A DNA stretch of 64,000 nucleotides, from contig CALAMO010000028.1 of the NCBI GenBank assembly GCA_937925855.1, positions 54,883 through 118,882 on the forward strand, in the 5' to 3' direction. Shown in pieces: positions 6,754 through 15,175 of this stretch (positions are counted from its first letter, which is position 1; each line of letters begins with the position of its first letter). A model generated the notes under the pieces. The model had not been told where the DNA came from, searched no databases, and saw nothing but the letters and a program-made list of their open reading frames with translations. The position numbers and the translations under genes were made by a program. This stretch comes from an uncultured Thiotrichaceae bacterium. Lineage in GTDB: Bacteria > Pseudomonadota > Gammaproteobacteria > Thiotrichales > Thiotrichaceae.

Positions 6754-7641
6754 ATGAAAGACTACATGATGGGCAGGTTCAGCATTATTGGCGCTGGTAA
6801 GCTGGGTAAGACACTGGGCAAGCTTCTCGCCGCAGCAGGACTGCAGATAGGCGATATCCTGAACCAAAGCCAGAACAGCACCCAGGCCGCAGTCACATTC
6901 ATCGGCAGTGGCCGTGCCTGCACCACCATGAGCGAGCTCAAAGCGGCAGACTATTACCTACTCGCCTGCCCGGATCATCAAATTCAGGCGTGCTGCCAAC
7001 AGCTGGCTGCCAGCGGCGTGTTGCAGGCCGGGATGACGGTGTTTCACTGTAGCGGCGCTCTGAATACAACGGTACTCCATAGCGCAACAGCGCAGGGAGC
7101 GCACACCGCTAGCATCCATCCCGTGCGCAGTTTTGCGCAACCGCCGTTAGCCGCAGCGGAATTTCCAGGCACCTACTGTGCACTGGAAGGCGATGCCGCT
7201 GCTTTAGCTCAGCTGGAACCGCTGTTTGTTAGCTTGGGCGCAATCCCATTTCACATCGACCCAGCCCAGAAAACGCTGTATCACGCAGCCAGTGTCATGG
7301 CCTGCAATTATCTGGTCACACTGCAAGACCTGAGCCTACAGGCTCTCGAACAAGCGGGAGTGGAACGCGACCTGGGAATGAATATCCTACACCCTCTGGT
7401 CAAGGGTACAATCAACAATCTATTCACCTCCGGCACGGCAGCAGCGCTAACCGGGCCCATTGCCCGTGGTGAACATAGCGTCGTGGCTGCACAGTTAGAG
7501 GCACTACAGGCCTGGTCACCTGATATAGCCAAGGTATATCGCGCCCTAGGCCAGCAGTCGCTAAAGCTAGCCGCACAGCAGCCACAACAGAAAGCGGCTA
7601 ACTTGGCACGGGTCGCACGCGCACTTGCAGCAGCATCCTGA
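6754..7641 (+). CDS. Rossmann-like / DUF2520 domain protein
   Basis: N-terminal GAGKLGKTLGKLLAAAG; FHCSGALNT...ASIHPVRSF and helical C-terminal domain with ALTGPIARGE typical of the DUF2520 family. Confidence 0.8.
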   Translation: MKDYMMGRFSIIGAGKLGKTLGKLLAAAGLQIGDILNQSQNSTQAAVTFIGSGRACTTMSELKAADYYLLACPDHQIQACCQQLAASGVLQAGMTVFHCSGALNTTVLHSATAQGAHTASIHPVRSFAQPPLAAAEFPGTYCALEGDAAALAQLEPLFVSLGAIPFHIDPAQKTLYHAASVMACNYLVTLQDLSLQALEQAGVERDLGMNILHPLVKGTINNLFTSGTAAALTGPIARGEHSVVAAQLEALQAWSPDIAKVYRALGQQSLKLAAQQPQQKAANLARVARALAAAS

Positions 7642-7783: not shown

Positions 7784-10700
7784 ATGTTGATATCCATTCT
7801 TAAGCGGGCCGTCTGGCCCACGGTGTTGTTGTGCCTGACGTTTTTAGGTGGCTGTATTACGCCCGACAACGCCGTGTTGGAAGGCTTGGGCACACCCGAC
7901 ATTACCGGCTGTAGTTCTATTCCTGGTGTTGAAAACGGTGCGGATTACCGACCGCGCACTGCGATTAAGCTAGGCACGGATAATCGCACGCACCCCGACG
8001 TGTTTTACATGGGCTGGGCCCAGCTGGATGAACGCTCGGATCTGCGCTTTCCACAAAAGGGCTACGACGGTAACGGCTTTGAAGATAAACTGCTAGTCAC
8101 CCGCAAAACCGCCAGCCCCGCCAATGAAGACGATCCAACGGCGGGCAACGTGGTACGCACTTGGCAGCTGTTACCGCAGGTCGACAATAATTGTAATGAC
8201 GTAGAAAAAATCCGCATTCACAGCTTTGACGTTGCACCCAATGGCCGCAGTCTGTATGTGTCGATGGCGCGCACTGGAGCGGGCGATACGCATCTGGGCG
8301 TTTATCGCTTAGACCTCGAAACTGGAGATTTGGCTAAGATTAGCCAGGAAGACGATATACACTTCATGTATCCCACCTATGTGGGCAACGATCCCGACAC
8401 GAAACATGAAATGCTAGTGGTCGCCAAAACGGTTACCGCCGCCGATATTCCACACAACTATGCACAACGGATACAACTGGTGGATGAGTACGATCGCGCA
8501 CCTACACCGCTGATCCACACCATGGACTCCCAAACCGGCGAGACCGTACGCATCGGCCTCAACAACTCGCACCAAACCGAACCCTTTGTGATGGTCGGCC
8601 CAGACGGCAATCGCATTGTCATCTTCACCCAGTGGGAGCACCAGGACAGCGTTAACCGGTTTGCACTGTGGAAAACCCAGATTGACGGCAGCGATAACTT
8701 TACGTTTTTTGGTCAAGAAAGCTCAGAGGATAAAAGCGGCGCTCACCTATTCCAGGCCAGACCGATTAAATCCGGGCCGTATCAAGGCTATGTGATTATG
8801 ACGGAGAGCCATAATAAATTTGACGCTGAGGGCCATATTGCGTTCACCTTCCGCCACCATCAAGAATTACGCAGCGCCAAACATTATCTGCAAAGAGTTG
8901 AACAAGCCGGTTCGACCAACACTCAGATTAGTCGCAACCCAGAACACTATAATGATGAAAGTTTCGTCTACTCCAGCCGCGCAGATAGCAACTACACCTA
9001 TCAACTTTACATCAAGGATTTTCCAGCAGTCCCCAGCGCGACACCGACTGCAGGCGTCGGCGAGCAATTAACGCCCGATACGGATAACTACCACTTCGTG
9101 CAGGCGCGCAGCTACTATCCGCCGGAGCGTGAACTCATTGCACCCACAAATGCGGCTGACCTCGGCGAAAACCGTGTTTCCTTTACCAATGAAAACCTCA
9201 ATGGCCGCGCCGGTTTCTTGGTACAGAATTTGGCGCAGTCTGATAACGGCGTGCAACATCAGTTAGATGGTTTAGCCCCTGAAGACATCAGCATGCAGTT
9301 TTTCCTGCCGTCCCATCACTTCAGCAATTCAAAAACCATTGGTGTTAAAAGCAGCCCAGAAATGAGCATTCCGGCCAGCGGCTTTATCTCACCGGAGTCT
9401 GATGGCTCGATGGGTGTCGTGATGAAAGAGGGTCTGTATGTCTGGAAGGTGAATAAGCGCTTCAAACATGCGGAGCAGGATATTTGGCTGCCGGTGCGTT
9501 CAGAACGCCAGGAAGTAACTTTTGTTCCTAACCGGGTCAATGCCTGTAACCAATGCCATCAGGAACGTGACCAAACCAATCTTGACCTCTATGCGAATTA
9601 TGATTCAATTGCAGCGCGCAAGATGCACGGTGACTTGAGTGATGTTGTGGATATTAGCCATTACAGTGCCTACAACGCCGTGCCTGATTTCCACCAAGAC
9701 ATTATGCCGCTGCTGACCAAGCCGGCATTGGGTGGCGGCCAGTCCTGCGCGCAGTGCCACACGGCGGGAACGAAGCTTGACCTGTCTAATACCACCGGCA
9801 CGGAAGCGATGAACTCGACCTACCGCACCCTGATACGCGGTGCAAAATTATTAGACAGCGGCAATTTATTGCCGTATTCCAATGATTCTATTAACCCACT
9901 GGGCATGGACGATAACTATCATCCCGCACCCCTACTATGGAGTTTACTGCTGGGCGACGACTTATCAGTGCCGCCTGATGCAGACTATGCCAACGACAGT
10001 AACCGTAATTTGGATCGTCCCGGAGATTACGGTGCGACTTACGATGCCGAGGTCGAAACAACCATTAACACGATTAATGCACAGTACGACCATAGCAAGC
10101 ACCTGTCGGCTGCCGATATACAGAAATTCATCACTTACTCCTCTACCCAGATGCCCGCTGGCTTATCTGACCGCATGACCTTTGTCCCACAAAGCGGCAA
10201 CTACCGCTCGGGTAATGCCGGACAAAAAGCTTATCAGGCCATGGTGCGCAACTGTTTCAGCTGTCACAACAGCTTCACCACCGCGACCGGCGGCGGCATT
10301 GAAGACCCGCTGTATGGCCTGCCGCTAGAAAAACGCTTCAGCAGCAGCACGGGGATGCGTGACAAGCGTATGCGCTTTATGGTGCGCAACCATATTGCCA
10401 ATAAACATGATACGAAGTACTCAAAATATAACTGGCAAAGCAATATTAATACGGCCCGCGATCAAACCCTGCTTTCAGCCAGCTACCGCATTAATTTTGC
10501 TGACATCGATAACTCAGAAATCCTGCGCTATGCTCTGGGCACGGATGCTAATGGCACACCGTTGAATCAGGCACAGCATGGCGTTCAGCACCCCCAGGTA
10601 TTAAACGAACAGCATGCTGACTATCTGGCTATTAAACATTGGGCCAGTGCCCAGAGCGATACGCCGAATCAGGCACCTACTCTAGATGCCTCGATCCCAG

Positions 10701-11956
10701 CATTCACCATTAAGGAATATGACCCGCCTGCTTACCTGCCGGCACAAATCACCTGGACAGATCCCGATCTTGGCCCGAATGGGTTACAGGAACTCTCACA
10801 GGCATTTATTGCTGGTAATAGCACCTCCAGCCATAATTTTAACGACAGCATGTTGGCGTTAGAATACGACAGCTTTACCGCTGCCCGGATAGAGACCTAT
10901 GCCATTTTGGGCGACCGGGGCAACCAAAACTTCAGCTTCTACGTCACCGATGGTGCCGACGGCTCGGTGCAGAATGTGCCGGTCACGATTACAACGGATT
11001 ATACCGTGCCCGCACCGACTGCAACGCTGCCCAATGCCTATGCGTTTTATACCGTACGCAATCTAGGTGGCAACGCAGATGCAGGCCAACTCCGTCGCTT
11101 AGCGCATGATGCCGCCAACCCAAGCGTTCCTAAAGACACGCTGATTGGGACAATTCCAGGTTATACCAATGAATGGACCACCGTTTATCGGCGTGCCGAT
11201 AAGGGCTGGCTATATTTTATCGAGCAGTCTACGCAGATGATCCATGTCGTCGATGAAACCACAGCTGCTGTACAGTTCCATATCAAACTTAATCACGAAC
11301 CTAATAAGCGCGGTGATAAGCATAAGCAAACTAACTACCTACTCTGGTGGCGTGCGAAGGAAGGTCTGGATCACCTGAGTAATACTGACTGTACCGAAGG
11401 CGAGTTACAGGGCTTGCTGGAATCCAAGCTCAGCGATGAAAGCGCCCGCAACGGCGATTGGTATATCGGCCTGGGCTGTGGTGAATTACCCGCTGGCGGC
11501 GTGGGCTCAACGATTGAAGTGACGCCGGAATACCGCACCAAACTCGCCGATGGCGGCAATACACTGGCGGTATATACCTGGAAGCGAGCAACGTTCATGA
11601 GTAAATGGGTGAATGAAGGGGTAGATCGCCTTAACGTACTTAATCTAGTGACCGGTAAAGCCAAGAGCCTAGGAGATTTTGACTTCCCGGCACAGGCTTT
11701 ATCCACTGATCCAGCAACTCGCTATCCAGCAGCGACCTATGCCAATGTCCGAGCGGTGGTAGTCGCTGAAGATGGGGCGTTCTATGGCTTTAACAAAGAT
11801 ACCAATGACCAGCCTGTCACCCTGTTTAACTTTGACCCGCTGGAAGAAGTACAGCAACCGGTGAACACGCCGGAGTGGATCAATACATACTTCACGCAAT
11901 ACCAAAGTTATGGAACACCCTTTTTGGTGATTGAACCACGCGCTGTGCAACCATAG
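7784..11956 (+). CDS. Large tri-haem lipoprotein, HzsA (hydrazine synthase alpha)-related-like
   Basis: Lipobox LTFLGGC; three CXXCH haem motifs (CNQCH at 9545-9559, CAQCH at 9746-9760, CFSCH at 10253-10267); beta-propeller-like N-terminal repeats; single intact 1390-aa ORF. Confidence 0.7.
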   Translation: MLISILKRAVWPTVLLCLTFLGGCITPDNAVLEGLGTPDITGCSSIPGVENGADYRPRTAIKLGTDNRTHPDVFYMGWAQLDERSDLRFPQKGYDGNGFEDKLLVTRKTASPANEDDPTAGNVVRTWQLLPQVDNNCNDVEKIRIHSFDVAPNGRSLYVSMARTGAGDTHLGVYRLDLETGDLAKISQEDDIHFMYPTYVGNDPDTKHEMLVVAKTVTAADIPHNYAQRIQLVDEYDRAPTPLIHTMDSQTGETVRIGLNNSHQTEPFVMVGPDGNRIVIFTQWEHQDSVNRFALWKTQIDGSDNFTFFGQESSEDKSGAHLFQARPIKSGPYQGYVIMTESHNKFDAEGHIAFTFRHHQELRSAKHYLQRVEQAGSTNTQISRNPEHYNDESFVYSSRADSNYTYQLYIKDFPAVPSATPTAGVGEQLTPDTDNYHFVQARSYYPPERELIAPTNAADLGENRVSFTNENLNGRAGFLVQNLAQSDNGVQHQLDGLAPEDISMQFFLPSHHFSNSKTIGVKSSPEMSIPASGFISPESDGSMGVVMKEGLYVWKVNKRFKHAEQDIWLPVRSERQEVTFVPNRVNACNQCHQERDQTNLDLYANYDSIAARKMHGDLSDVVDISHYSAYNAVPDFHQDIMPLLTKPALGGGQSCAQCHTAGTKLDLSNTTGTEAMNSTYRTLIRGAKLLDSGNLLPYSNDSINPLGMDDNYHPAPLLWSLLLGDDLSVPPDADYANDSNRNLDRPGDYGATYDAEVETTINTINAQYDHSKHLSAADIQKFITYSSTQMPAGLSDRMTFVPQSGNYRSGNAGQKAYQAMVRNCFSCHNSFTTATGGGIEDPLYGLPLEKRFSSSTGMRDKRMRFMVRNHIANKHDTKYSKYNWQSNINTARDQTLLSASYRINFADIDNSEILRYALGTDANGTPLNQAQHGVQHPQVLNEQHADYLAIKHWASAQSDTPNQAPTLDASIPAFTIKEYDPPAYLPAQITWTDPDLGPNGLQELSQAFIAGNSTSSHNFNDSMLALEYDSFTAARIETYAILGDRGNQNFSFYVTDGADGSVQNVPVTITTDYTVPAPTATLPNAYAFYTVRNLGGNADAGQLRRLAHDAANPSVPKDTLIGTIPGYTNEWTTVYRRADKGWLYFIEQSTQMIHVVDETTAAVQFHIKLNHEPNKRGDKHKQTNYLLWWRAKEGLDHLSNTDCTEGELQGLLESKLSDESARNGDWYIGLGCGELPAGGVGSTIEVTPEYRTKLADGGNTLAVYTWKRATFMSKWVNEGVDRLNVLNLVTGKAKSLGDFDFPAQALSTDPATRYPAATYANVRAVVVAEDGAFYGFNKDTNDQPVTLFNFDPLEEVQQPVNTPEWINTYFTQYQSYGTPFLVIEPRAVQP

Positions 11957-11967
11957 GTTTATCGGAC

Positions 11968-12717
11968 ATGTTTATATTTTCATCTAGATGCTTATTGAGG
12001 CTCGGTACACAGCTACCCCAAGGATGCCTTTGGGTAGCTGCAGCCACATCCGTCATTAGCAGCAATGTCTCTGCCGATGCAGTCTGGCCGCCTATTGATG
12101 CAAGTGTCGGTTTTTCGCATACTGCCGATGCCCGTGAAGGCGTTAGTCTAACCACAGGCTGGCGATTTAATGCTGATTGGCGGCTAAAAGTACGGTTTGA
12201 GCGCAACTTCCACGAGCGCGCACATAACGTCAGTTTGGTTCAATTTAATGAAAGCTTTAAGCGTAACAGTATCAGCTTACTCGTCGAGCGTGATATTGAG
12301 GCCTTCCCAGCATTATCGGTCGCAGCTGGAGTAGTACACTTTGATACGGGTTCGGAATGGACGGCGAACCCAACCGTTAGTGCGATTTATGAATTAAATA
12401 ACACTTATTACTACGGTTCGCATTTAGGTAGCCCTGAGGCTACGATCAATTACAATAAATTGGTGCCCTATCTTGGACTGTCATGGTCATCCTTGCGATC
12501 GAATCAAACCGGCTGGGGATTAGTTGCTGAGGCAGGCTTTATGTTCAATCTTAAACCCACATTAACGCTTCGCTCAGAAAACCCTTCGGATTTAGTCTCA
12601 TTGAATGCTGATCTACAGTATGCAGTCGATGCCTATATTAAGCGCTTGGAGTCAAGTGGCGCGTTTCTTGACAATGTTGTGCCACGCATTGGTGTAGCCG
12701 CCATTTATCAGTTTTAA
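11968..12717 (+). CDS. Putative outer-membrane beta-barrel protein
   Basis: Signal-like N-terminus ending SADA, alternating amphipathic strands, C-terminal ...GVAAIYQF (terminal Phe typical of OMP beta-signals); 12 bp after the tri-haem ORF. Confidence 0.55.
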   Translation: MFIFSSRCLLRLGTQLPQGCLWVAAATSVISSNVSADAVWPPIDASVGFSHTADAREGVSLTTGWRFNADWRLKVRFERNFHERAHNVSLVQFNESFKRNSISLLVERDIEAFPALSVAAGVVHFDTGSEWTANPTVSAIYELNNTYYYGSHLGSPEATINYNKLVPYLGLSWSSLRSNQTGWGLVAEAGFMFNLKPTLTLRSENPSDLVSLNADLQYAVDAYIKRLESSGAFLDNVVPRIGVAAIYQF

Positions 12718-12731
12718 ATTTATTTGGAACA

Positions 12732-13358
12732 ATGTCTCTGGGCCATTCACTGTTTAAGCATCTCTCGTGTGGAGTGACCGTCATAGCCGGCTGTCTAAGT
12801 GTTTTTTGTTTAAGTTTAGTAGGGCTCATATTTATCTTGCAGGCACCGCTCTGGCACAGCTATTCTTCGCCAGTACTGCAACTGCACACGGATATTTGGC
12901 ACTACCTACTGGTAGACAACGGACAATTGCTGATTAATCATGCACAGCTGAACATGGCCGCAGAACGTCATATGCTGGATGTAAAACGCATACTTCAACG
13001 GTTATTTACCGCCACACCTTGGATCACGCTGGCTTTTGGCATCAGTCTGTACGGCTGCCAAAAACAGTGGCGGCGGGCACTCAGAGGGGTTGCGCACTCT
13101 GGGGGTGTTGTGCTCGTCTTACAGGTGCTACTTGTAGTGCTGGCAGGCTTTAGGAATGTCTTTATCCATTTTCATGCGCTGCTCTTTTTAGTGGACACTT
13201 GGTGGTTTGAACCTGACTCTGTATTGATTCAGGCATTTCCCAAGATCTATTTCCAGCAGTTTGCCTTATGTTGGACGCTTTTAGTCAGCGCTCTATGTGC
13301 GCTGCTTTATGGCATAAGTACTGCGCGCTGGCGCAATACAAGCACACCACGCGGCTAA
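12732..13358 (+). CDS. DUF1461-like integral membrane protein
   Basis: Four TM segments; [31 protein letters not shown] motif resembling the DUF1461/TIGR01906 signature. Confidence 0.65.
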
Positions 13359-14116
13359 CTCTTCAGCCGATACCCCGTTCTAAACATCCACCAAACCACG
13401 CCCATACAAATTGCCAGGAAAGCCAACACAATAAACAGGCTGAGGTACACATTCACATCGGCAATTTCAAAAAAACTCCAGCGGAAACCACTCACCAGAT
13501 ACACCACCGGATTAAACAACGTGACGGTCTGCCACGCGGGCGGCAGCATACTAATCGAGTAGAACGTGCCGCCCAGAAAAACTAGCGGCGTAATGATCAA
13601 CAGCGGCACCACCTGTAATTTCTCAAAGTCGTTGGCCCATAAACCAATAATAAAACCAAACAGGCTAAACGAAACGCAGGTTAATACCAGAAAGGTCAGC
13701 ATCCAGATAGGATGAGCGATATGCAGTTCAACAAATAGGCTGGCTGTCGCCAGAGTGATTAGTCCAATGATCAATGACTTAGTTGCCGCTGCGCCGACAT
13801 AACCAATCAGGATCTCAAAGTAGGAAATCGGTGCCGACATAATTTCGTAGATCGTCCCGGTGAACTTGGGAAAGAAAATACCAAACGAAGCGTTGGAGAT
13901 ACTCTGAGTCAGGAGCGTTAGCATCATCAAACCAGGCACAATAAACGCGCCGTAAGACACACCATCTACTTCCTGAATACGGCCACCAATCGCTGAGCCA
14001 AACACAATAAAATACAGGCTGGTAGATAAGACCGGCGAGGCAATACTCTGCATCAACGTGCGCCAAGTGCGCAACATCTCAAATTTGTAAATCACTTTAA
14101 TCGCATTGAAGTTCAT
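13355..14116 (-). CDS. ABC-2 type transporter permease (YadH-like)
   Basis: Six-TM ABC-2 permease pattern ([54 protein letters not shown]). Confidence 0.85.
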
Positions 14117-14156
14117 ACGGCTGCCTGTTTAGAGGGTTAATCGATAAATTGGGCAT

Positions 14157-15080
14157 TTATTCGGTGTGTACCAGATTGACAAAAATATCTTCCAGCGAGC
14201 TTTGCGTCGTATTGAGGTCTTTTAAGGTCAAACCAACCTGACTAATATCCTGTAGCAGACGGGTAATACCGGTTTGTCCAGAGCGGGTATCGTAGGTATA
14301 CGTCAACTGTTCGCCGCTGTCTGCCAGCTCCAAATCGTATTCAGCCAGCGCAGCAGGAATCTGCGTAATGGCCGTCCGCAGCTCTATTGTCATTTGCTTT
14401 TTACCCAACTTTTGCATCAGCCGCTGTTTATCTTCAATCAACAACAGTTCGCCAGCGCGAATCACACCCACCCGGTCTGCGATTTCCTCCGCTTCTTCAA
14501 TGTAATGGGTCGTCAAAATAATGGTCACCCCCGAAGCACGCAGCTTATTGACGATCTGCCACATGTCCTTGCGCAGCTCGACATCTACCCCCGCCGTTGG
14601 CTCATCCAGAAACAATATCTTTGGCTCGTGTGACAGCGCTTTGGCGATTAATACCCGGCGCTTCATCCCACCGGATAGCGTACGAATTTCACTGTACTTT
14701 TTGTCATGCAGCGAAAGGTCGCGCAGCAGCTGATCCAGGTAGGCCGCATCGGTTTTCTTACCAAACAGGCCGCGACTCAGATTAACCGTATCCCAGACCG
14801 TTTCGAAAGCGCCTAACGTAAGCTCCTGCGGCACCAAACCAATCAGCTGGCGGGTAATACGATAGTCTTTAATAATATCGTATCCGTCCACGGTGACGCT
14901 GCCACCACTGGGATTCACTAGGCCACATATAATCGAAATCAACGTGGTTTTACCCGCACCATTTGGCCCGAGCAGTGCGAGAATTTCACCGTTTTTAATG
15001 CCAAGATTTATCGTTTTTAAGGCCTGATGACCGGAATGATAGGTTTTTTCCAAATCAGCGATTGTGATGATGTCAGACAT
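14157..15080 (-). CDS. ABC transporter ATP-binding protein (YadG-like)
   Basis: Walker [11 protein letters not shown], signature LSGGMKRRV, Walker [11 protein letters not shown]; adjacent permease. Confidence 0.92.
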
Positions 15081-15175
15081 GTGTATCCTGGCAGGTTGCA
15101 TAGCCGTATGAGCAAGCGCCTTATAATCACACAGAAACTCCCGTCACTTCAATTAAACTGTAGCAAGAATCAACA

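Follow-up and report, generated by a model that had tools for sequence, protein, structure and literature searches.

Three genes in tandem occupy positions 7784-13358 of the DNA analysed here, a stretch of 64,000 nucleotides from an uncultured Thiotrichaceae bacterium that is called the window. They code for a haem lipoprotein (P0001), a putative outer-membrane barrel (P0002) and a Lit-family membrane protein (P0003). Coordinates are positions within the window, residue numbers are those of these three proteins unless HzsA (the alpha subunit of hydrazine synthase) or Bacillus cereus Lit is named, and G and L numbers designate the genomes and loci compared. All three open reading frames (ORFs) lie uninterrupted on the + strand, separated by intergenic gaps of 11 nt (P0001/P0002) and 14 nt (P0002/P0003). 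The first-pass annotation gave these gaps as 12 and 14 bp, of which the second is right. It also described an uninterrupted ORF of 1390 residues with a lipobox and exactly three CXXCH motifs, followed by a secreted protein ending in Phe, and both descriptions agree with the features of the locus:

7784-11956, + strand: predicted tri-haem lipoprotein of the HzsA superfamily, P0001, 1390 residues (open ORF, lipobox, three CXXCH motifs, family alignment, hhalign)
7844-7855, + strand: lipobox LGGC with the predicted lipidated Cys24 (LGGC-ITPDN); across the family the Cys precedes [IV]xP[DS]N
8228-8776, + strand: part of the predicted N-terminal beta-propeller, residues 149-331 (hhalign to HzsA-related propellers, probability 98.9, E 2.9e-17)
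9545-9559, + strand: haem motif 1, C588NQCH592, at the position of HzsA haem alpha-I (family alignment, hhalign)
9746-9760, + strand: haem motif 2, C655AQCH659, which pairs collinearly with haem 2 of the HzsA-related proteins (hhalign, E 3.8e-9 at probability 96)
10091-10093, + strand: His770, invariant (alignment-based, not structural)
10253-10267, + strand: haem motif 3, C824FSCH828, absent from HzsA and found in some HzsA-related proteins (hhalign, inspected relatives)
10676-10999, + strand: Ig-like domain, about residues 965-1072 (AlphaFold predicted local distance difference test (pLDDT) mostly 70-90; Foldseek matches to Ig domains)
11030-11953, + strand: C-terminal beta domain, probably propeller-like, about residues 1083-1390 (partly low-confidence model; Foldseek)
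11968-12717, + strand: putative outer-membrane beta-barrel P0002, 249 residues, ending in YQF (weak CarO match; a homologue likewise placed in 9 of the 11 loci)
12732-13358, + strand: Lit-family membrane protein P0003, 208 residues (PF07314, E 3.6e-16, 60 bits against a gathering cut-off of 24; B. cereus Lit structure 7b0o, E 1.8e-7)
12969-12971, + strand: His80, equivalent of the catalytic His85 of B. cereus Lit (alignment)
13173-13175, + strand: His148, equivalent of the catalytic His153 of B. cereus Lit (alignment)

The CXXCH motifs of P0001, at residues 588, 655 and 824, are spaced by 67 and 169 residues, and none of 5000 residue shuffles of the protein gave three or more such motifs. The gene is present in a single copy in its genome. 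In an alignment of eight sequences (P0001 and seven relatives, with 51-58% identity) all three haem motifs are invariant, which indicates that P0001 is a real conserved gene. The lipobox Cys is conserved in every aligned member in which the N-terminus is present. Within the window's own order the family occurs in 7 of 63 genomes, its own included and two of them partial. The other carriers belong to the Chromatiales, Thiomargarita, further gammaproteobacteria and a metagenome-assembled genome of the Troglogloeales; three carrier genomes fall in the phylum but outside the class. The long form of the lipoprotein was found in only 4 of 369 gammaproteobacterial genomes sampled for spread. According to the +2 rule of Escherichia coli, Ile, and not Asp, after the lipobox Cys fits sorting to the outer membrane. 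The Ile at this position of P0001 fits a predicted outer-membrane location, and a location on the cell surface is plausible.

The linkage of the three genes was counted at 11 loci having a lipoprotein of the P0001 family and readable downstream sequence. The order lipoprotein-barrel-Lit is found in the window, G022, G424 and L002. A WD40 lipoprotein stands between the barrel and Lit genes in G420, and the Thiomargarita locus L005 has the order lipoprotein-Lit. In L003 (on one contig with G263), L006 (likewise with G146), L004 and G417 the lipoprotein has the barrel but no Lit beside it, and in G013 it has neither. A Lit-type gene is therefore found downstream of the lipoprotein in 6 of the 11 loci and a barrel in 9, so that the genes do occur together elsewhere, one of the two points on which the first-pass annotation had staked its proposal beforehand; the other, similarity to HzsA, also turned out in its favour. 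For comparison, about 10% of genomes have PF07314 at any position. As some of the genomes are related, the 11 loci are not 11 independent events, but the adjacency of lipoprotein and Lit recurs in at least three separate lineages (the window's order, Chromatiales and Thiomargarita). G575 has too little downstream sequence to be counted. In G376 the lipoprotein ends where its contig does, and another contig opens with a Lit fragment, which is compatible with a split operon. The trio is best read as a conserved operon whose Lit part is present only in some of the family. Scans of the window for promoters and terminators gave results no better than shuffles.

The family PF07314, formerly DUF1461, is now known as Lit (lipoprotein intramolecular transacylase). 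The first-pass annotation called P0003 a DUF1461 membrane protein with four transmembrane segments and a part in a redox module. The family match is right and a redox role is not supported; by sequence, P0003 belongs to the Lit family of lipoprotein-modifying enzymes. The hydropathy scan shows three strong transmembrane segments; a fourth is assumed because the homologous Lit has four. In addition to the two His residues, Phe144, Phe152 and Trp157 of P0003 correspond to Phe149, Phe157 and Trp162 of B. cereus Lit. In the B. cereus numbering, His85, His153, Phe149, Phe157, Trp162, Val89 and Lys or Arg at position 90 are kept in all six complete operon copies. These positions are essential or highly conserved in Lit, and both histidines, Phe157 and Lys90 matter for its activity (PMC8275575). 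No literature was found under the name DUF1461.

Earlier descriptions confine Lit to low-GC Gram-positive bacteria, and a review reports none among the Gram-negatives (PMC8689077). PF07314 is found above cut-off in 36 of the 369 gammaproteobacterial genomes, and the His pair is kept in all well-aligned members. The proteins encoded outside the operon group into two clades with support of 100/99 and 99/100; neither of them includes the operon copies, whose own branching the tree leaves unsettled. We considered whether all gammaproteobacterial Lit relatives adjoin haem lipoproteins, and this is false: no large CXXCH protein was found within four genes in any of the 30 resolved non-operon neighbourhoods. 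Among the PF07314 matches L044-L079, members of the first of these two clades have the motif H..[DE]VR, with Trp replacing Phe149, while those of the second have H..DV[AS] and are mostly 240-300 residues long; the catalytic His pair is kept in both. In several genomes the first-clade gene follows a short conserved gene, which may resemble DUF1244.

The relationship of P0001 to HzsA is remote. The first-pass annotation called the protein HzsA-like and proposed a check against HZS_alpha and the c-type cytochrome families. Direct matches were absent: P0001 has no match to HZS_alpha (PF18582) at E<=1, nor has any of the eight family members at E<=10; the NCBIfam hydrazine_alpha model gave no match; and direct searches of the PDB with P0001 and with the family profile found no relative. 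The distant similarity is nevertheless real at the level of profiles. The P0001-family profile reaches 33 further gammaproteobacterial proteins through the propeller, mostly of 880-1040 residues. The members inspected look like lipoproteins and have two or three CXXCH motifs, all five that were scanned are above the HZS_alpha cut-off, and a search with their profile reaches the HzsA structure 5c2v at E 7e-20. In the comparison of the P0001 family with these HzsA-related proteins by hhalign, the propeller of residues 149-331 is matched, and a separate run on residues 480-960 gave an alignment that starts at haem 2 and covers the remainder of the core, haem 1 being a minor match only. The order of propeller, haem 1, haem 2 and haem 3 is shared, so common ancestry with the HzsA-related proteins is the simplest reading. 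By these profile comparisons P0001 is assigned to the HzsA superfamily, with remote ancestry through a bridge of HzsA-related lipoproteins. Those lipoproteins, of about 880-1010 residues (PF18582 members such as L136, L138 and L140), share with P0001 the lipobox, the propeller and two or three collinear haem motifs; however, they lack its C-terminal 430 residues, and P0001 has diverged beyond the PF18582 model.

The residues of P0001 past about 960, comprising the Ig-like domain and a beta-rich domain, are absent from the HzsA-related proteins. The AlphaFold model of the C-terminal part (pLDDT 67.8) supports the Ig-like domain. A propeller-like C-terminus, as originally suggested, is only weakly indicated for the domain that follows, where the whole-domain Foldseek matches, to propellers such as 4r5o and 3bws, have template modelling (TM) scores of 0.2-0.25.

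HzsA itself resembles P0001 in the order of its domains, with the c-type haem domains behind a propeller. Its distal haem ligand His772 aligns through His766 of L136 with His770 of P0001. Position 745 of the 5c2v chain was taken as residue 772 by our own count, assuming a signal peptide of 27 residues, and the same count places the haem-I His of HzsA at residue 587, as published. However, P0001 is a lipoprotein, has three haem motifs where HzsA has two, and carries extra Ig-like and C-terminal beta domains. The homology of the propeller and haem core is what would favour a nitrogen enzyme resembling hydrazine synthase in this non-anammox bacterium, but such a function is highly improbable. The haem alpha-I of HzsA has an unusual ligand, Tyr591 (PMC12607021, PMC12758564). 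The equivalent position, four residues past the CXXCH His, is Asp596 in P0001 and Asp, Asn or Ser in its relatives. The same loss in other non-anammox homologues led to the conclusion that they are not hydrazine synthases (PMC12758564). In addition, no genes resembling HzsB or HzsC (the beta and gamma subunits) are present in the conserved neighbourhood of the 11 loci, where the neighbours are the barrel, Lit and unrelated genes. P0001 is therefore not considered to be a hydrazine synthase, and the loss of Tyr591 would argue against hydrazine synthesis and in favour of either electron transfer or some other reaction of a small molecule.

Two other explanations have to be compared with a lipoprotein modified by its own Lit enzyme. 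The genes might form a surface redox module, as the first-pass annotation suggested, serving extracellular electron transfer; electrons, or the lipoprotein itself, would cross the outer membrane by way of the barrel, and the third protein would be an incidental membrane component. The outer-membrane type of lipobox, the three invariant haem motifs and the frequent neighbouring barrel are in line with this, as is a weak similarity of all eight members to domains II/IV of MtrC/MtrF (best E 4e-7). However, P0001 scores 22.1 bits against PF22113 (MtrC/MtrF), below the gathering value of 30, and its three widely spaced haem motifs compare with the ten of the MtrC/OmcA type, for which reason a multihaem cytochrome of that type was rejected. 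The locus has no gene for a multihaem periplasmic cytochrome, and its third product is Lit-like. With about 230-250 residues the barrel is too small for a conduit of the MtrB type, and the passage of electrons through it is unlikely. P0002 itself has a signal-like N-terminus and a C-terminal Phe. Its match to the NCBIfam CarO porin model (E 1.3e-6) scores 28 against a cut-off of 300; membership of that family was rejected and the match retained as support for a small barrel only. The barrel proteins of the other loci are 16-30% identical to P0002; that of L006 was missed by phmmer with P0002 and was counted from its position and its similarity to the L003 protein. The usual parts for extracellular electron transfer are lacking here, and we regard the complete module as improbable. 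It is slightly easier to believe, though still doubtful, that the Lit-like protein only happens to be encoded in this operon and has a general role or a different catalytic activity, for example on lipids or on other lipoproteins. The two other PF07314 clades keep the His pair in unrelated neighbourhoods, and several lipoprotein loci do without a Lit gene. On the other hand, the adjacency recurs in divergent lineages, far above chance for a gene of this frequency, and the operon copies stand apart from both clades.

The explanation that we favour, with a probability of roughly 55%, is that one operon codes for a tri-haem propeller lipoprotein of the outer membrane, a partner barrel and a Lit-family modifier of the lipoprotein anchor. 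P0001 would be exported and would receive diacylglycerol on Cys24 by the action of Lgt and then LspA. The co-encoded Lit would shift the sn-2 acyl chain to the amino group of the Cys, giving an N-acyl, S-monoacylglyceryl (lyso) anchor in place of the usual triacyl anchor made by Lnt. The host genome contains an Lnt gene, so the lyso anchor would be made in competition with the triacyl route: Lit would compete with Lnt for the same free amino group, and from the known chemistry of Lit the lyso anchor would not be further acylated by Lnt. Together with the barrel, the altered anchor may bring the haem protein to the outer membrane and perhaps to the cell surface, and a redox reaction could take place there at the haems. 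Observed here are the genes and their homologies, the kept catalytic residues, the recurring adjacency and the Lnt and soxB genes of the host; we infer the activity and substrate of Lit, the haem loading, location and surface exposure of P0001, its electron partner and the redox reaction. More tentatively, an Lnt-bearing Gram-negative bacterium may use a locus-encoded Lit to give a lyso anchor to one haem lipoprotein, the anchor chemistry serving as a protein-specific signal for sorting or surface display.

Several observations weigh against this explanation. Lit is absent from 5 of the 11 loci, and for G146 and G263, which carry the lipoprotein, no PF07314 match is listed in the genome scan; Lit is therefore not essential to the lipoprotein family. 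Most gammaproteobacterial PF07314 proteins are unlinked to haem lipoproteins, and the family may act more broadly. P0003 is about 22% identical to B. cereus Lit. It scores 65.1 against TIGR01906, just under the cut-off of 74.8, and 35.6 against the NCBIfam equivalog for Firmicutes Lit (NF051877, cut-off 400), and owing to the latter value it is placed in the Lit superfamily but outside the Firmicutes orthologues. The AlphaFold prediction of residues 24-955, made from a shallow alignment of six sequences, has a pLDDT of 32.5 and leaves the haem region without a working model.

It is useful to compare the proposed system with those already known. P0003 shares the sequence family, the His85/His153 pair, Phe157, Trp162 and size with B. 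cereus Lit (PDB 7b0o) and with Lit2 of a Gram-positive copper-resistance element. It differs in its Gram-negative, Lnt-bearing host and in the position of its gene beside a haem lipoprotein, and its activity is predicted from sequence. AatD of the Aat secretion system offers an analogy only: it too is Gram-negative, is encoded at the locus and lipidates a partner protein (PMC8689077 and general knowledge), but it acts at an N-terminal glycine and is not related to Lit.

The host has a soxB match above cut-off and, with Thiomargarita and Chromatiales among the carriers of the family, is likely to be a sulfur-oxidising gammaproteobacterium. A methanotrophic host was dropped as there was no pmoA-type match, though the pmoA search gave none anywhere.

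Other genes are found around these loci. In the window, genes for an ABC-2 transporter permease and ATPase lie on the - strand (13355-15101); the permease gene (13355-14116) is convergent with P0003, and the two genes overlap by 4 nt at their stops. The WD40-repeat lipoprotein of G420 has 684 residues (L127:9031-11085). A secreted domain of about 270-290 residues adjoins the haem lipoprotein in three loci, at L005:6630-7991, in the C-terminal half of L127:9031-11085 and at L012:17944-19233. It has no Pfam match in L005 and was not found in the window's genome; of the 63 genomes of the window's order only 2 have it, each of them beside the lipoprotein, and one of the two has another copy at a different place. 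In G575 (L134:7294-8088) the gene directly before that of the haem lipoprotein, and not the one after it, codes for a secreted, barrel-like protein that lacks a Pfam match. A rhodanese-domain protein (L012:12241-12948, G013) follows the lipoprotein gene at the locus that has neither barrel nor Lit. In the Troglogloeales locus (L004:6125-10317) the lipoprotein is split into two ORFs by a frameshift at about 7030-7051, which may be an assembly error.

The lipoprotein extends the HzsA superfamily, for which no function is known outside the anammox members. If the Lit relatives are active, Gram-negative bacteria would have one more way of N-acylating lipoproteins, and in some cases it would serve a single substrate. 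The enzyme and its candidate substrate are encoded by neighbouring genes, so the purpose of a lyso anchor is directly testable here. An active Lit in a Gram-negative bacterium would bear on how outer-membrane lipoproteins are sorted and displayed.

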